The translations under genes and the position numbers were made by a program. From the NCBI GenBank assembly GCA_016771945.1, contig QZLF01000001.1, positions 1,197,447 through 1,261,446 on the forward strand: a DNA stretch of 64,000 bases, read 5' to 3'. The notes beneath the pieces were generated by a model. It worked only from the letters and a program-made list of their open reading frames with translations, did not search any database and was not told the DNA's origin. Origin of the DNA: Candidatus Leucobacter sulfamidivorax. GTDB taxonomy: Bacteria > Actinomycetota > Actinomycetes > Actinomycetales > Microbacteriaceae. Shown here one piece after another: positions 15,837-37,600 of this stretch (positions are counted from its first letter, which is position 1; each line of letters starts with the position of its first letter).

Positions 15837-15890
15837 GAGTTGGCACGGATGTGCAGTTGCGGTGCGGGAACGACATATCCGCGCCAACTC
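15837..15890 (+). repeat. Dispersed palindromic repeat, copy A
   Basis: A 54-bp imperfect palindrome. The left end GAGTTGGCACGGATGTG is almost the reverse complement of the right end CATATCCGCGCCAACTC, with a variable centre. Two further copies occur at 33872-33924 (inverted) and 35048-35100 (same orientation). It lies between the 5' end of rnpB and the 3' end of map. Confidence 0.8.
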
Positions 15891-31533: not shown

Positions 31534-31741
31534 GGCCGCCTCCGTTCTTCGCGATCCGTGTGATCGATTGACTCCATACAACCATGCTTCGCTGCGTGCG
31601 GCATGCAGCACGGCGGCCGTTTCGCTGAGCGCGTAGATGCGGTCCGAGCTTTCCCCGCGGGTTCTCGCGCCTCCCCGGCGCGCGATCCGCCGAATGTCGG
31701 AGGCCCGCCCTAAGGTTATGGAGTCGGCCGAGAAAGGGGTC

Positions 31742-33841
31742 ATGCCTGTGGCAGAGTCGAGCTATTCAGCCCGCCATCTCACCGTGCTCGAGGGGCTCGA
31801 GGCGGTGCGCAAGCGGCCGGGCATGTACATCGGCACGACCGATTCGCGCGGCCTCATGCACTGCCTGTGGGAGGTCATCGACAACTCGGTCGACGAGGCG
31901 CTCGCCGGGCACGGCGAGGAGATCGGCATCGTGCTGCACGCGGACGGCAGCGTCACCGTGAGCGATCGCGGTCGAGGCATCCCGGTCGACATCGAGCCGA
32001 AGAGCGGCCTCAGCGGCGTCGAGCTGGTCTTCACCAAGCTGCACGCCGGCGGCAAGTTCGGCGGCGGCGGCTACGCCTCCTCCGGCGGCCTCCACGGCGT
32101 CGGCGCGTCGGTCGTGAACGCGCTCTCCTCGCGCCTCGACGTCGAGGTCGACCGCGACGGCAAGACCTGGGCGATGTCCTTCCGGCACGGCGAACCGGGC
32201 GTCTTCGCGGGAGACACCCCCGACAGCCCCTTCACGCCCTTCGAGGACTCCTCGGAGCTGCGCGTCGTCGGCAAGGTCGCCAAGGGGGTCACGGGCACCC
32301 GCGTGCGCTACTGGGCCGATCCGCAGATCTTCCTGCCCACGGCGCGCTTCGAGCCCGAGTCCCTCACCGCGCGGGCCAGGCAGACGGCGTTCCTCGTGCC
32401 GGGGCTCGGCCTCGAGATCCGCGACGAGCGCCCCGAGGCGCTGGGGGAGTCGGGGGAGTCGCCGATCCACAGCTTCCGCTACGAGGGCGGCATCAGCGAG
32501 TTCGTCGACTTCCTGGCGGTCGACGCGCCGATCACCGACACCTGGCGGGTGAGCGACAGCGGCACCTTCACCGAGACCGTCCCCGTCATGGACGAGAAGA
32601 CCGGCCACCTCGTGTCGCGCGAGGTGGAACGGGTGTGCGAGGTCGACATCGCCCTGCGCTGGGGGACGGGCTACGACACCGAGATCCAGAGCTTCGTGAA
32701 CATCATCGCGACGCCGAAGGGCGGCACGCACCTGAGCGGCTTCGAGCAGGGGCTCACGAAGTTCTTCCGCAAGCAGATCGAGACGAATGCGCGCCGGCTC
32801 AAGGCGGGCTCCGACAAGCCGGAGAAGGACGACATCCTGACTGGGCTCACCGCCGTCGTCACGGTGCGGGTGCCCGAGCCGCAGTTCGAGGGCCAGACCA
32901 AGGAGGTGCTGGGCACCGCCGCCGTGCGCCAGATCGTGGCGAAGGCCGTGGCCTCCGGGCTCGACGCGCGCTACGCCTCGACCAAGCGCGACGACCGCGC
33001 GCAGACCGGCGCGCTGCTCGAGAAGATGGTGTCCGAGATGAAGTCGCGGATCGCGCTGCGCGCGCAGCGCGACACCGCCCGGCGCAAGAGCTCGCTCGAG
33101 AGCTCGTCGCTGCCGGCGAAGCTCATCGACTGCCGCTCCCGCGACGTCGCCGACACCGAGCTCTTCATCGTCGAGGGCGACAGCGCGCTCGGCACGGCGA
33201 GGCCGGCGCGCGACAGCGAGTTCCAGGCGCTCTTGCCGATCCGCGGCAAGATCCTGAACGTGCAGAAGGCCTCCGTCGCCGAGATGCTCGGCAACGCGGA
33301 GTGCAGCGCGATCATCAAAGTCATCGGCGCGGGCTCCGGCCGCGACTTCGAGCTCGATTCGGCCCGTTACGGCAAGGTGATCCTCATGAGCGACGCGGAC
33401 GTCGACGGCGCGCACATCCGCACGCTGCTGCTGACGCTGTTCTTCCGCTACATGCGGCCCATGCTCGAGGCGGGGCGGGTGTACGCCGCGGTGCCGCCGC
33501 TGCACCGGGTGATCGTGCAGAATGCGGGGCGCACCCCCAACGACGTGATCTACACTTACAGCGAGAAGGAGCTGCAAGGGCTGCTCGCAGACCTCCGCCG
33601 GCGCGGCAAGAAGTACGTCGAGCCGATCCAGCGCTACAAGGGCCTCGGCGAGATGGACGCGGATCAGCTGGCGGAGACCACGATGGACCGCGAGCACCGC
33701 ACGCTGCGGCGGGTCCGCGTGGAGGACGCGCACGCGGCGGCGCAGATGTTCGAGCTGCTCATGGGCAACGACGTCGCGCCGCGCAAGGAGTTCATCATCG
33801 ACAACGCCGACGACCTCGACCGGGAGCGCATCGACGCGTGA
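31742..33841 (+). CDS. parE: DNA topoisomerase IV subunit B (GyrB-like)
   Basis: 699 aa. GHKL ATPase domain with RKRPGMYIGTTDSRGLMH, EVIDNSVDEALAG and GGLHGVGASVVNALS. The TOPRIM domain has FIVEGDSALGTARPARD and LPIRGKILNVQKA, then DADVDGAHIRTLLLT. The C-terminal IQRYKGLGEMDADQL motif is typical. Together with ParC it decatenates and relaxes DNA. EGDSALG replaces the more common EGDSAGG. ATG at 31742 is backed by GAAAGGGG with good spacing; upstream in-frame ATGs lack conserved text. A TAAGGT hexamer near 31711 is a possible -10. Confidence 0.94.
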   Translation: MPVAESSYSARHLTVLEGLEAVRKRPGMYIGTTDSRGLMHCLWEVIDNSVDEALAGHGEEIGIVLHADGSVTVSDRGRGIPVDIEPKSGLSGVELVFTKLHAGGKFGGGGYASSGGLHGVGASVVNALSSRLDVEVDRDGKTWAMSFRHGEPGVFAGDTPDSPFTPFEDSSELRVVGKVAKGVTGTRVRYWADPQIFLPTARFEPESLTARARQTAFLVPGLGLEIRDERPEALGESGESPIHSFRYEGGISEFVDFLAVDAPITDTWRVSDSGTFTETVPVMDEKTGHLVSREVERVCEVDIALRWGTGYDTEIQSFVNIIATPKGGTHLSGFEQGLTKFFRKQIETNARRLKAGSDKPEKDDILTGLTAVVTVRVPEPQFEGQTKEVLGTAAVRQIVAKAVASGLDARYASTKRDDRAQTGALLEKMVSEMKSRIALRAQRDTARRKSSLESSSLPAKLIDCRSRDVADTELFIVEGDSALGTARPARDSEFQALLPIRGKILNVQKASVAEMLGNAECSAIIKVIGAGSGRDFELDSARYGKVILMSDADVDGAHIRTLLLTLFFRYMRPMLEAGRVYAAVPPLHRVIVQNAGRTPNDVIYTYSEKELQGLLADLRRRGKKYVEPIQRYKGLGEMDADQLAETTMDREHRTLRRVRVEDAHAAAQMFELLMGNDVAPRKEFIIDNADDLDRERIDA

Positions 33842-33871
33842 GGTCCCGCAGCGCGTTTCGCGGCCGTCGCC

Positions 33872-33924
33872 GAGTTGTCGCGGATGTGTCGTAGCCGAGT
33901 TGCAACTGCACATCGGCGCCAACT
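33872..33924 (-). repeat. Dispersed palindromic repeat, copy B (inverted)
   Basis: On the minus strand it aligns with copy A through AGTTGGC, GATGTGCAGTTGC, ACGACA and ATCCGCG. It lies 30 bp after the parE stop and 100 bp before the endonuclease-like gene. Confidence 0.8.
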
Positions 33925-34026
33925 GAAGCCGAGCTATTTGCGGCTCACAGGCGGACTCGGGACGAGCTCTCCACAGATCGGGTCTGCACGGCGTTCGCGA
34001 CGATCCCAGGGGCCGATGATGGGGTC

Positions 34027-35046
34027 ATGACACCCCGATTCGCGCCGCTTCCCGACACACTCGGGGCGTCGTTCTCGCGTGCGGAGGCCACGGCTCTCGG
34101 AGTCTCTTCGCGCAGGCTGTTGCAGTCGGACGTCGAGAGAATTGGGTTCGCGCTGTACCGCCGGCGCGACGCCGTTCCGGCGATACAGGACGGGGGTCGG
34201 CAGGAGGAAGTCCTCGACCGGCACGCGGCGCAGCAGTGGAGGGAGCAGCACTCCGAGCTGCTGCTGGCTCATCGTGACCGCAGGCCGGAGGGAGGCTTCC
34301 TGATCGGAGGATCGGCCGCGGTGCTCTGGGAGCTTCCGGTGCGACCCGGCGCCGACCACCGCATCGATATCGGGCGATTCGCTCCCTCGCGGGCCTCCCG
34401 GCGGATGGAATTCCGTTCCCGGCAGCTGCGTCCGGACCGGGCGCGGGTGGTGCGGCGGCGCGGTCTGCCCGTCACCGACGCGGCGACGACCTGGGCGATG
34501 CTCGCCCCCGAACTCGACCTCCCCGATCTGGTCGCGCTCGGCGACGCCGTGATCCGGCGCAGTCGGATCCCCGGAACATCGCGCCTGAGGCGCTCGCCGC
34601 TCGCCGAGCTCGAACAGTTGCGAGAGGTGGCGGCGATCGGCCGGCGGCCGGGTGCGGCTCTGCTGCGTGCGGCCGTGCCCCTGCTCGTGACCGGCAGCGC
34701 CTCGCCGCCCGAAACGCATCTGAGGCTGCGTCTGCGTGAATGGGGAGCCCCCGAGCCCGAACTCGACCACGACGTGTTCGATCGGAGGGGGCGGCTGATC
34801 GGATGCAGCGAGATCGCCTACCCGAGATACCGCCTGGCGCTCGAGTACGAGGGGGATCATCATCGAACGGAAACCGCCCAGTGGAACAGGGATATCGAGA
34901 AGTATCGGCAGTACGAGCAGAACGGCTGGGAAGTGATCCGAGTGACGGGGACGCTGCTGTAGCGGCGTCGCTACGAACTGCGGGAGCAGGTGTTCGAAGC
35001 GCTCATCCGCCGTGGTTGGGTGCCGGATCAGAGCGCCGACTGGTGA
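34027..35046 (+). pseudogene. AbiEi/DUF559-like protein (VSR-type endonuclease fold suspected), interrupted by TAG at 34960
   Basis: The open frame gives 311 aa ending at a TAG (34960-34962); the same frame continues for 27 codons to TGA at 35044-35046. The N-terminal quarter (FSRAEATALGVSSRRLLQSD) resembles the winged-helix AbiEi-type start. The middle (GGSAAVLWELPVR, VTDAATTWAMLAPELDLPDL) is typical of Microbacteriaceae/Micrococcales proteins of this kind. The C-terminus (LALEYEGDHHR, then WNRDIEKY and GWEVIRVT) resembles a DUF559/VSR-like nuclease core. The reading after the TAG (RRRYELREQVFEAL) looks like the family's normal final helix. So a late nonsense change is likely; activity may survive. 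Flanked by inverted copies of the palindromic repeat. Confidence 0.6.
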
Positions 35047-35047
35047 G

Positions 35048-35100
35048 GAGTTGGCGCAGATGTGCAGCTAGCCTGCGGTAACGACACATCCGCGTCAAGT
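35048..35100 (+). repeat. Dispersed palindromic repeat, copy C
   Basis: Begins one base after the TGA that closes the extended endonuclease-like frame: GAGTTGGCGCAGATGTGCAG on the left, ACGACACATCCGCGTCAAGT on the right, same orientation as copy A. Confidence 0.8.
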
Positions 35101-35153
35101 CGAACGGTGCGGACGGGTGTAGGTGGAGCAAGGAGGGGCCGGCGGAGCCGGGG

Positions 35154-37600
35154 CTACGGCGCGACGCCGATGAAGGCGGCGGCGCCGTCGATGGGGGTGC
35201 CCGAGCCGTCGCGGCGCCCGAGCTCCGTGGGCAGCTTGCGCGCCGCACCGTCGGCGGCGAGGGCGCGCGGCTCGCCTACGCCGACCCAGGCGCAGGCGAG
35301 CCGATCCTCGCCCTTCAGGAAGCGCTGCGCGCGCACGCCGCCCGTGGCGCGGCCCTTCGCCGGGAACTCGGCCCAGTCCGACACCTTGGCGGTGGCCACG
35401 TCGGCCCCCGGCAGGGTCTGCGAGCTGTCGGCGACGGTCACCACGCGGGCCTCGGTCCCGGCGGGCACCGCTCCCGCGAAGACGACCCGGGCGCCCGCGG
35501 CGAGCTTCATGCCGGCCATGCCGCCAGCCGGCCGGCCCTGGGGCCGCACCGAGTCGGTCGGGAAGCGCAGCAGCTGCGCATCGCTCGCCACGGCCGCGAA
35601 CTCCGAGCCGTCGGGCGCGGGAAACGCCGCCACGACGCGGTCGTCGCCCTTCAGCGAGATCGCCTCGAACTCCGGACGCGCGGGCAGATCCTGCAGCACG
35701 ACCCGCTTGACGATGCCGGAAGCGGTGAAGAGCCCGACGGGCACAGGGCTCTCGAGCGGCGCGAGGCCGACCACGCGCAGCTTCTTGTCGGTGATGCCGA
35801 GGTAGGCGGCGAGCGGCACCCCGGCCGAGAAGGCGATCGACGCCGCGGGTACGAGCGGCAGGTCGACGGGGTGAAGCGGTGGACCGTGCCGTCGCTGAGC
35901 ACCGCGCCCAGCTCGCCGCGCACGGTGCCGTCGACGGCGGCTGCCACCGCGCCGTGCTTCGTCGCGCGCGAAGCGCCCCGCGGCGAGTCCGCGGCCGCGG
36001 GGTCGCGGTCCACCCGCAGTGCCCGCCCGGTGGCCGACAGCAGCACGGTGCACGGCGTGTCGGCGACCTCGAGCGAGGCGGCGGCCCCGGCCGACGAGCG
36101 GGCGGGCCGCGCCACCGCGCCCGTGAGCACGGTGCGGCGCGGGGTGCCGTAGGCCTCCGCCGCCTCGTCGAGCTCGGCCGCGACGACCTCGCGCAGGCGC
36201 TCGTCGCTGCCGAGGATCTCGACGAGCGCCTCGATCTCGGCGCGCAGCTGATCGCGCTCGGCCTCGAGCTCGACGCGCGAGAACTTCGTGAGGCGGCGCA
36301 GCCGCAGCTCGAGGATGTACTCGGCCTGCGCCTCGGAGAGGTCGAAGACCTGCATGAGGCGGGTGCGCGCCGAGTCGGCGTCGTCGCTCGTGCGGATCAG
36401 CTGGATGACCTCGTCGATGTCGAGGATCGCGATGAGCAGGCCTTCGACGAGGTGCAGCCGCTCGCGGCGCTTGCGCAGGCGGTACTCGGAGCGGCGCGTC
36501 ACGACGGAGAGGCGGTGGGCGAGGAAGACCCGCAGCATCTCGCGCAGCCCCAGGGTCTGCGGCTGCCCGTCGACGAGGGCGACGGAGTTGATGCTGAACG
36601 AGTCCTCGAGCGGGGTGACCCGGTAGAGCTGCTCGAGCACGGCCTCGGGGCTGAAGCCGGTCTTCAGCGTGATCACGAGGCGCAGGCCGTTCTTGCGGTC
36701 GGTGAGATCGGCGACGTCGCTGATGCCCGAGAGCTTCTTCGCGTCGACGCCCTGCTTGATCTTCTCGATGACCCGCTCGGGCCCCACGAGATAGGGGAGC
36801 TCGGTGACGACGAGCCCGGTCCGGCGCGGGCCGAGCGACTCGACCGAGACCTTGGCGCGCGTGCGGAAGGCCCCGCGGCCGGTGCGGTAGGCGTCCTTCA
36901 CCCCGTCGAGGCCGACGATGATGCCGCCGCCCGGCAGGTCGGGCCCGGGGATGAACTCCATGAGCTCGTCGACGGTCGCCTCGGGATTCGCGAGCAGGTG
37001 CTTGGCGCCCTCGACCACCTCGATGAGGTTGTGCGGGGCGAGGTTGGTCGCCATGCCGACCGCGATGCCGGAGGCCCCGTTCACGAGCAGGTTCGGGATC
37101 GCCGAGGGCAGCACGTCGGGCTGCATGATCTGGTTGTCGTAGTTCGGCACGAAGTCGACGACGTCCTCGTCGAGGGATCCCGTCATCGCGAGCGCCGCGC
37201 CCGCGAGCCGCGCCTCGGTGTAGCGGGACGCGGCGGGGCCGTCGTCGAGCGAGCCGAAGTTGCCGTGCCCGTCGACGAGGGGCAGGCGCATCGCGAAGCC
37301 CTGCGCCATGCGCACGAGCGCGTCGTAGATCGACGAGTCGCCGTGCGGGTGCAGCTTACCCATGACCTCGCCGACGACGCGGGCCGACTTCACGTGCCCC
37401 TTGTCGGGGCGCAGACCCATGTCGGTCATCATGAAGAGGATGCGCCGCTGCACCGGCTTCAGCCCGTCGCGCGCGTCGGGCAGCGCCCGGGAGTAGATCA
37501 CCGAGTAGGCGTACTCGAGGAACGACGATTCCATCTCGGCGGAGATGTCGATGTCTTCGATGCGCTCCACGGCGTTCGAGTTGCTCACGGTGCGGGTCAC
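35154..37600 (-). pseudogene. parC: DNA topoisomerase IV subunit A (GyrA-like), frameshifted near 35868
   Basis: The first 576 or so codons are intact: [21 protein letters not shown] at the N-terminus, [22 protein letters not shown], and the catalytic Tyr in [10 protein letters not shown]. The frame then shifts at the run GGGG (plus strand 35868-35871): the protein breaks off from VHRFTP into nonsense, while the neighbouring frame continues with [18 protein letters not shown] and the rest of the beta-pinwheel domain down to the stop at 35154. One extra base would give about 815 aa, the expected length. Start GTG with AGGAAAGG. ParC is essential with ParE, so a sequencing error or a very recent mutation is suspected. 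Confidence 0.88.

Follow-up and report, generated by a model that had tools for sequence, protein, structure and literature searches.

A nuclease-like gene and the palindromes that often bracket it in Leucobacter, Microbacterium and similar bacteria: an apparent enzyme-plus-repeat system not described before

In Leucobacter, Microbacterium and bacteria like them, a nuclease-like gene is often bracketed by long palindromes, and gene and repeats together have the look of an enzyme-plus-repeat system not described before. We analysed one such gene in a stretch of 64,000 nt from Candidatus Leucobacter sulfamidivorax (the window), together with its homologues in other genomes. The explanation that we favour, with moderate confidence, is that the gene and the palindromes are two halves of one REPIN/RAYT-like system built from unrelated parts. 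The cognate pairing of gene and palindrome is well supported. The features of the window are as follows.

15837..15890, + strand: 54-bp palindrome copy A, a dispersed solo copy; flanking genes called convergent; RNA fold z -6.0
33872..33925, + strand: 54-bp palindrome copy B, the upstream bracket; RNA fold z -3.5
34027..34962, + strand: AbiEi-like plus Vsr/EDxHD-like nuclease gene, 311 aa up to an in-frame TAG at 34960
34027..34686, + strand: AbiEi/Rv2827c-like region, about residues 1-220; matches to 6y8q and 1zel; boundary approximate, set by eye
34702..34947, + strand: Vsr/EDxHD-like nuclease domain, residues 226-307; matches to 1vsr and 3r3p (I-Bth0305I); E229, E262, E273, H279, D289
35048..35101, + strand: 54-bp palindrome copy C, the downstream bracket, inverted relative to copy B; RNA fold z -3.3

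A search with GAGTTGGCGCGGATGTG, allowing up to three mismatches, gave six arm matches in the window, which combine into three palindromes of exactly 54 bp each. Shuffled versions of the window gave 0.45 matches on average and three at most, and six were reached in 0 of 100 shuffles. The three palindromes of about 54 bp named in the original prediction are thus present, with coordinates correct to within one base. Its count of three holds for the window and not for the genome, where we found 10 full copies of equal length. Copy B consists of two inverted arms of about 20 bp and a 14-nt centre; in the pattern search its arm matches fell at 33872-33888 and 33909-33925, and those of copy C at 35048-35064 and 35085-35101. 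Copy B and the segment 35049-35102 form an inverted pair with 78% complementarity. The opposite orientation claimed for B and C was also found, the inverted alignment scoring best (57 vs 31), and the centre differs between the two. Copy C begins at 35048, one base past the extended stop TGA at 35044-35046, as had been described. Folding the RNA of each copy, which had been suggested as a check, gave the z-scores listed above. The long frames around the bracket lie at 31637-33841 and, on the other strand, end at 35154. The nuclease-like gene is, as claimed, the sole gene between B and C, and its neighbours fit parE and parC by reading of their translations.

Homologues in other species are bracketed in the same way by palindromes of other sequence, in agreement with the earlier idea of a cassette made of a gene and its ends. 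For each locus, the 600-bp upstream and downstream flanks were aligned with each other, and outer flanks at 700-1300 bp of the same loci served as the control. The 144 loci were reduced to 128 distinct ones by dropping 15 duplicates and one locus with a short flank. At 74 of these 128, which come mostly from Microbacteriaceae, the repeat match between the upstream and downstream flank was higher than in any of 112 outer-flank controls, whose top value was 42. The Leucobacter set contributes 35 of its 64 loci and the remaining set, mostly Microbacterium, 39 of 64. Loci in Mycetocola, Leifsonia, Agromyces, an Agrococcus bin and Occultella, the last from a different family (Ruaniaceae), were also above the control. 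Of 94 homologue rows listed, 64 were examined, mostly better-scoring, a few rows being second pieces of one gene, and the wider homologue set was drawn from the best 80 of 412 relatives. Two of the contigs (L280, L282) are labelled Planococcus and Stenotrophomonas, yet their relatives are actinobacterial; the assemblies are likely to be mislabelled or mixed. At 68 of the 74 bracketed loci, each flank has a palindrome whose centre is clear. When the upstream flank of one locus was aligned with the downstream flank of another (992 pairs), the 95th percentile was 35; the maximum, 342, lies above every true pair because some loci adjoin the same genes. No matching pair above the control was found at 54 of the 128 loci, including L032, one of three homologues in the window's own genome (41 vs a control maximum of 42). 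The prediction had named as contrary evidence relatives that keep the gene without repeats, or repeats with no link to the gene family and no empty sites. As a whole this is not what was seen, the repeats being tied to the gene family and short gaps existing (see below), and the 54 loci without a pair are the part that goes the other way.

The palindrome sequence matches within a locus and differs between loci (GGGTCAGTTTCTGG, GGTCAGTAAGGTGCAC, GTTGGCGCTCCGCG, TGACTTGGCGTATATGTACG and others), and close homologues can have the same sequence. Another Leucobacter, G009, has a homologue of 46% identity that is enclosed by window-type palindromes at 107653 and 108832, a spacing of 1179 bp compared with 1176 bp in the window. 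The idea that the window palindrome stands at all homologues of its own genome was rejected, as the paralogues L032 and L033 carry palindromes of their own. An otherwise unique centre is common to both palindromes in direct orientation at 12 of the 68 bracketed loci, in inverted orientation at 4 of 68 and in either orientation at 15 of 68, where sharing means at least the 99th percentile of unrelated pairs. Six loci (L137, L139, L132, L148, L245 and L248) look like one palindrome duplicated around the gene. Two or more palindromes apparently stand in succession on one side at L286, L290, L295, L299 and L301. Proteins and palindromes also diverge together (Spearman 0.155 over 69 loci; 0 of 2000 permutations as high). 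This is not independent evidence, because palindrome similarity is mostly limited to pairs above 60% protein identity, and the closest pairs often have a genomic site in common.

The palindromes are also dispersed away from the gene. Across 54 genomes of the genus, the window type has the 10 copies of its own genome, 13 in G009, including the two around its homologue, and 6 weaker ones in G022, which holds a truncated homologue of the nuclease gene; none were found in 48 genomes. Single weak matches in G024, G028 and G035 are background, because single control matches arise in 6 genomes. If the pairing is general, the palindrome type around the G024 and G035 homologues ought to be dispersed in these two genomes as well, and this follow-up test succeeded. 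That type (GGTGTAGYCATATTGC-N21-complement, hereafter the GGTGTAG type) has 11 copies in G024 and 13 in G035. It was found in none of the other 52 genus genomes, and a reversed-pattern control gave zero in all 54 (up to three mismatches). Besides the bracketing pair, each of the four genomes counted has eight to eleven copies between other genes. A search of plasmid DNA with copy A gave nothing useful; the gene itself matched four plasmid records and one phage record, all below 60% identity.

Most copies stand at gene ends. The 43 copies of four genomes divide into 20 between convergent, 18 between co-oriented and 5 between divergent genes; none lies inside a called gene, and 38 adjoin a gene 3′ end on at least one side. 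Gene positions were taken here from a codon-position GC heuristic, with no annotation and no intergenic background, and the 43 take in the bracketing copies of the window's own genome and of G009 and leave out those of G024 and G035. With 10-13 copies per genome in the four genomes, these positions bear out the other reading first offered for the repeats, a REP-like family that collects at gene ends. The cassette and the REP-like family are the same thing.

Presence and absence of the cassette can be seen at parE-parC. The gap between these genes was read in 30 of the 54 genus genomes, the window's own included, and measured end to end in 21. Empty sites had been proposed as a check, and short gaps without the gene do occur: the gap is merely 44-62 bp in 3 of 20 measurable relatives (G031, G361 and G029). 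It is 105-198 bp in G023, G004, G001 and G016, with a long palindromic hairpin in that of G001. In the remaining gaps, of 571-1434 bp, lies either a cassette or remnant or else an ordinary gene, for example one for an EamA-type transporter or an acyltransferase by reading of translations. Six genomes, again including the window's own, have a cassette or remnant here, and the cassette palindromes are unlike one another (GTTGTCGCGGATGTG in the window, GGGGACGCAGA in G364, GGGGTCGCT in G017). Other cassettes adjoin gltA, purK, rlmB, polA or menC-like genes, judged from the translations read. At the gltA-like site (L158, L033, L156, L175, L176, L192), homologues are found in both orientations across Leucobacter genomes.

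One site is common to 19 loci (L257...L307), nearly all from Microbacterium. A matched pair above 42 was found at 13 of the 19, and 12 of these 13 have a clear palindrome on both sides, with several very unlike sequences among them. The flanking DNA is about 81% identical and the proteins only about 53%, the flank value coming from BLAST pieces and being noisy. Vertical descent was considered for this site and is unsupported (Spearman -0.21 between protein and flank identity). As protein identity does not track flank identity, the site demonstrates neither plain vertical inheritance nor an insertion in recent times. Either repeated entry at one place or a joint change of both flanking palindromes would give such a site.

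Movement might have been supplied from elsewhere. On this view an IS481-family transposase, a RAYT or some other enzyme would mobilise the palindromes as miniature elements, and the nuclease gene would have been captured between two of them. An IS481-type element of the window's own genome (C3, about 688.5-689.9 kb; L097, L099) has TGTCACCGATGTG in both ends, which agrees with TGTCACGGATGTG at 12 of 13 bases. However, the motif faces outward, opposite to the terminal repeat of a miniature element, and of 11 IS481-type loci examined, one had the motif, two had TGTCAGAGATGT and eight had neither. The palindrome around the nuclease family, moreover, changes from one kind of locus to the next. We regard capture between miniature elements as very improbable, and an IS481 origin of the palindrome was rejected, since orientation and relatives did not fit. 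The ends of the same element also contain repeated TGTCACCGATGT motifs that resemble the palindrome half-site.

Across types the palindromes measure about 53-65 bp, with arms of about 20-27 bp and a centre of 9-14 nt, whose length is constant within a genome and whose sequence is free. In the GGTGTAG type of G024 and G035, the 22-bp arms are nearly invariant and the central 9 nt differ in every copy. The outer extensions covary (AATCC/GGATT, AATCG/CGATT, AAAAC/GTTTT), with a C/G position mismatched in 4 of 24 copies. At six orthologous solo sites of the two genomes, the arms differ at 9 of 264 positions, the centres at 19 of 54 and the 10 outer bases at 7 of 60; the adjoining 60-bp flanks differ at 317 of 796 alignment columns, gaps included. 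Thus the arms are near-constant in place, and the centre drifts about as fast as its surroundings. Nine solo sites were resolved between G024 and G035, of which eight are common to both and one is in G035 only, so the majority of solo palindromes are old and spread slowly. L331 could not be placed, and L324, L327, L335 and L338 were without a match in the stretches compared. The outer arms extend palindromically, and a constant target duplication outside the ends is not evident by eye, with no statistics applied.

The arms also show compensatory changes. In the GGTGTAG type, 9 of 27 arm pairs change on both sides, a number reached by 0 of 500 shuffles. The window type, read in 18 copies from its own genome and G009, has 91.8% of cells paired. 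Both members have changed in 8 of its 17 pairs, which 10 of 500 shuffles equal or surpass; the covariation score is attained in 0 of 500. These changes would also suit a hairpin in RNA or in single-stranded DNA. The palindromes might accordingly be RNA hairpins, namely bidirectional terminators or mRNA stabilisers, and the protein might act on RNA or stand nearby by coincidence. The position beside gene 3′ ends and the strong RNA folding of all five copies examined (z -3.3 to -13.6) would be expected as well. But by eye neither copy B nor copy C is followed by a T-run, whichever strand is read, and a terminator scan of 33700-35300, covering loops of 3-8 only, gave none at these copies; the GC-rich stem with T-run of an intrinsic terminator is not what stands there. 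Nor does a terminator need arms that are identical genome-wide, or a sequence that follows the family of the neighbouring gene. At the Rfam gathering score, zero families matched in the five loci scanned. We consider it quite unlikely that the palindromes serve as RNA hairpins.

The protein resembles DNA-binding and nuclease proteins. Its AlphaFold model is confident (pLDDT 92.6), and the top match among solved structures is AbiEi (6y8q, E 1.6e-4). All other matches are weak (E >0.001), namely Rv2827c (1zel, E 7.8e-3) and, for the C-terminal part, Vsr (1vsr, E 0.11, probability 0.95) and the catalytic domain of I-Bth0305I (3r3p, E 0.12, probability 1.00, TM 0.63 on the target). A profile of the family matched the sequence of 3r3p weakly (E 0.12), and some family members have weak AbiEi profile matches. 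All 69 full-length sequences, namely the window protein and the 68 of 80 named loci with a full-length frame, 12 being left out, retain the positions E229, D/E262, E273, H279 and D289. By motif order rather than superposition, we assign them as the putative EDxHD catalytic residues. At E ≤0.01, 65 of the 69 proteins match the MTES_1575 profile and 37 match DUF559. The window protein itself matches MTES_1575 below the curated cut-off, and an MTES_1575 match extends across the in-frame TAG. The name AbiEi/DUF559-like first given to the gene is apt, as the N-terminal part is AbiEi-like by fold and the nuclease part groups with MTES_1575/DUF559. The protein that gave MTES_1575 its name is a very long HEPN protein of many domains (PMC3710099). 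Past the TAG at 34960, the frame stays open to the TGA at 35044-35046. The C-terminus of the window copy is probably damaged, because homologues also have this open continuation and align there too.

The fold raises another explanation. AbiEi and Rv2827c are described as autoregulators whose binding sites are paired 23-bp inverted repeats separated by 3 or 13 bp (PMC7319586). The window protein matches both in fold, and its family's arms are conserved in place at common sites. The palindromes could be solely regulatory sites of an AbiEi-like autoregulator that also influences neighbouring genes, the nuclease domain having another role and nothing moving. However, a downstream copy at the 3′ end of the gene and 20 of 43 copies between convergent genes are poor places for promoter control. 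The catalytic positions are kept in every one of the full-length frames, and presence and absence of the cassette at parE-parC requires movement or loss. A purely regulatory role is, in our view, unlikely.

We prefer the reading of gene and palindromes as two halves of one REPIN/RAYT-like system. Each family member would recognise a palindrome of its own, about 53-65 bp long. Two protein molecules would bind, one per arm, with their nuclease domains meeting over the centre, and the dimer would probably act in this variable part; the AbiEi-like region is proposed as the putative binder of one arm. One pair of sites would bracket the gene, and about ten more would be scattered between genes, mostly beside 3′ ends. 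Acting on these sites, the protein may have spread and maintained the palindromes over evolutionary time, and a lineage-specific protein would carry a lineage-specific site sequence. The cognate pairing, the dispersal of copies, the constant arms around free centres, the compensatory changes in the arms and the retained catalytic positions are observed here. We infer binding of the palindrome and the dimer from geometry, and, more weakly, nicking or cutting in the centre and the spread of gene and palindromes by this route.

A more detailed form of this reading, which we put forward only tentatively, joins nuclease action, arm copying, palindrome duplication and co-shifting specificity in a nuclease-palindrome system that tracks itself. 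The nuclease would act in the free centre of its own palindrome, and repair would copy arm onto arm, leaving the arms matched and the centre free to drift. Insertion of the gene at a palindrome would duplicate the palindrome and produce the bracket. If the specificity of the protein shifted, the bracketing sites would shift along with it, so that genes at the same place in different species would carry unlike palindromes.

By working principle, the system is closest to REPtrons. The REPIN/RAYT system has an enzyme gene beside its cognate repeats, which are dispersed and form hairpins; their ends are conserved, the centre is less so but its length is important, and the changes are compensatory (PMC3116915, PMC3733652). 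The likeness in working lies in a resident enzyme gene with bracketing and dispersed hairpin repeats (PMC3116915, PMC3733652, PMC8266576), and the palindromes lie near gene 3′ ends, as REPs do (PMC3733652). Dispersed palindromes, conserved ends, a free centre of fixed length and compensatory changes are all present here, and the enzyme gene is flanked by cognate repeats in 74 of 128 loci, the flanking being absent in 54 of 128. In contrast to a RAYT, which is a HUH tyrosine transposase, the flanked enzyme here is an AbiEi-like plus Vsr/EDxHD-like nuclease. The GTAG/CGTC end tag is absent by eye from the window copies; GTAG occurs inside the arm of the G024/G035 type, rather than as an end tag. 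One palindrome of 53-65 bp in about ten copies per genome is present here, whereas REP copies number hundreds per genome. We do not count the system as a member of the REPIN/RAYT family, since its enzyme folds differently and the window copies lack the end tag.

Other known systems resemble it in part. The AbiE type IV toxin-antitoxin system shares the N-terminal fold (6y8q, E 1.6e-4) and inverted half-sites of similar size. It differs in its toxin gene (AbiEii nucleotidyltransferase), which is absent beside the window gene, the neighbours being parE and parC frames; here a nuclease domain is fused, and the sites lie on both sides of the gene and are dispersed. With I-Bth0305I and Vsr there is a likeness in catalytic domain fold (at weak E-values), in the conserved acidic and histidine positions and in target size, I-Bth0305I dimerising on a target of nearly 60 bp (PMC3943268). 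Unlike that of I-Bth0305I, the gene here lies outside introns, its protein has a different DNA-binding part, and the target stands on both sides of the gene and elsewhere, undestroyed by insertion. A DDE insertion sequence differs in its transposase, which is absent between the palindromes, where the sole gene is nuclease-like. Because REPtron, AbiE, DDE element and terminator each have one or more defining features that were tested and are absent here, we class the gene and its palindromes as a new kind of system, parallel to a known one, with an inferred mechanism of spread. Judged by title and the start of the abstract, the matches listed in the open-licence PMC literature gave no description of a nuclease-palindrome system, and those listed for MTES_1575/DUF559 gave nothing linking it with palindromes.

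REP sequences are widespread in bacteria and are usually associated with a single-strand transposase. That a REP-like arrangement also exists around an enzyme with a different fold, and in several genera of actinobacteria, suggests that the strategy evolved convergently. The bracketed genes also supply dozens of candidate protein-target pairs, as each predicts a target of its own of about 55 bp, so the DNA specificity of AbiEi-nuclease fusions is directly testable. The predicted targets are long enough to interest students of sequence-specific nucleases. A poorly annotated family (MTES_1575/DUF559 domain plus AbiEi-like N-terminus) also gains a concrete hypothesis.

As a lead, arm divergence rises with gene damage across five genomes, compared with two arm lengths and in mismatch-limited searches. 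It is 0.019 in G035 (intact 330-aa frame), 0.078 in G024 (frameshift), 0.083 in G009 (frameshift), 0.133 in the window's own genome (early TAG) and 0.264 in G022 (5′ part lost), where two of the six copies are doubtful and the best four give 0.226. Covariance-model searches scored 20 candidates per genome. In G281, from another genus (L044), at least 10 places match the palindrome model, five with equal score. The one sequence read at L044 forms a perfect palindrome that has CCGGACGTCCGG at its centre and a related arm, GTCGCGGATGTG, and the centre may be conserved in G281. In G182, from another genus of the family (L043, L067), palindromes of the GTCACGAATGTG type are partly tandem with a 40-bp period, neighbours sharing arms.
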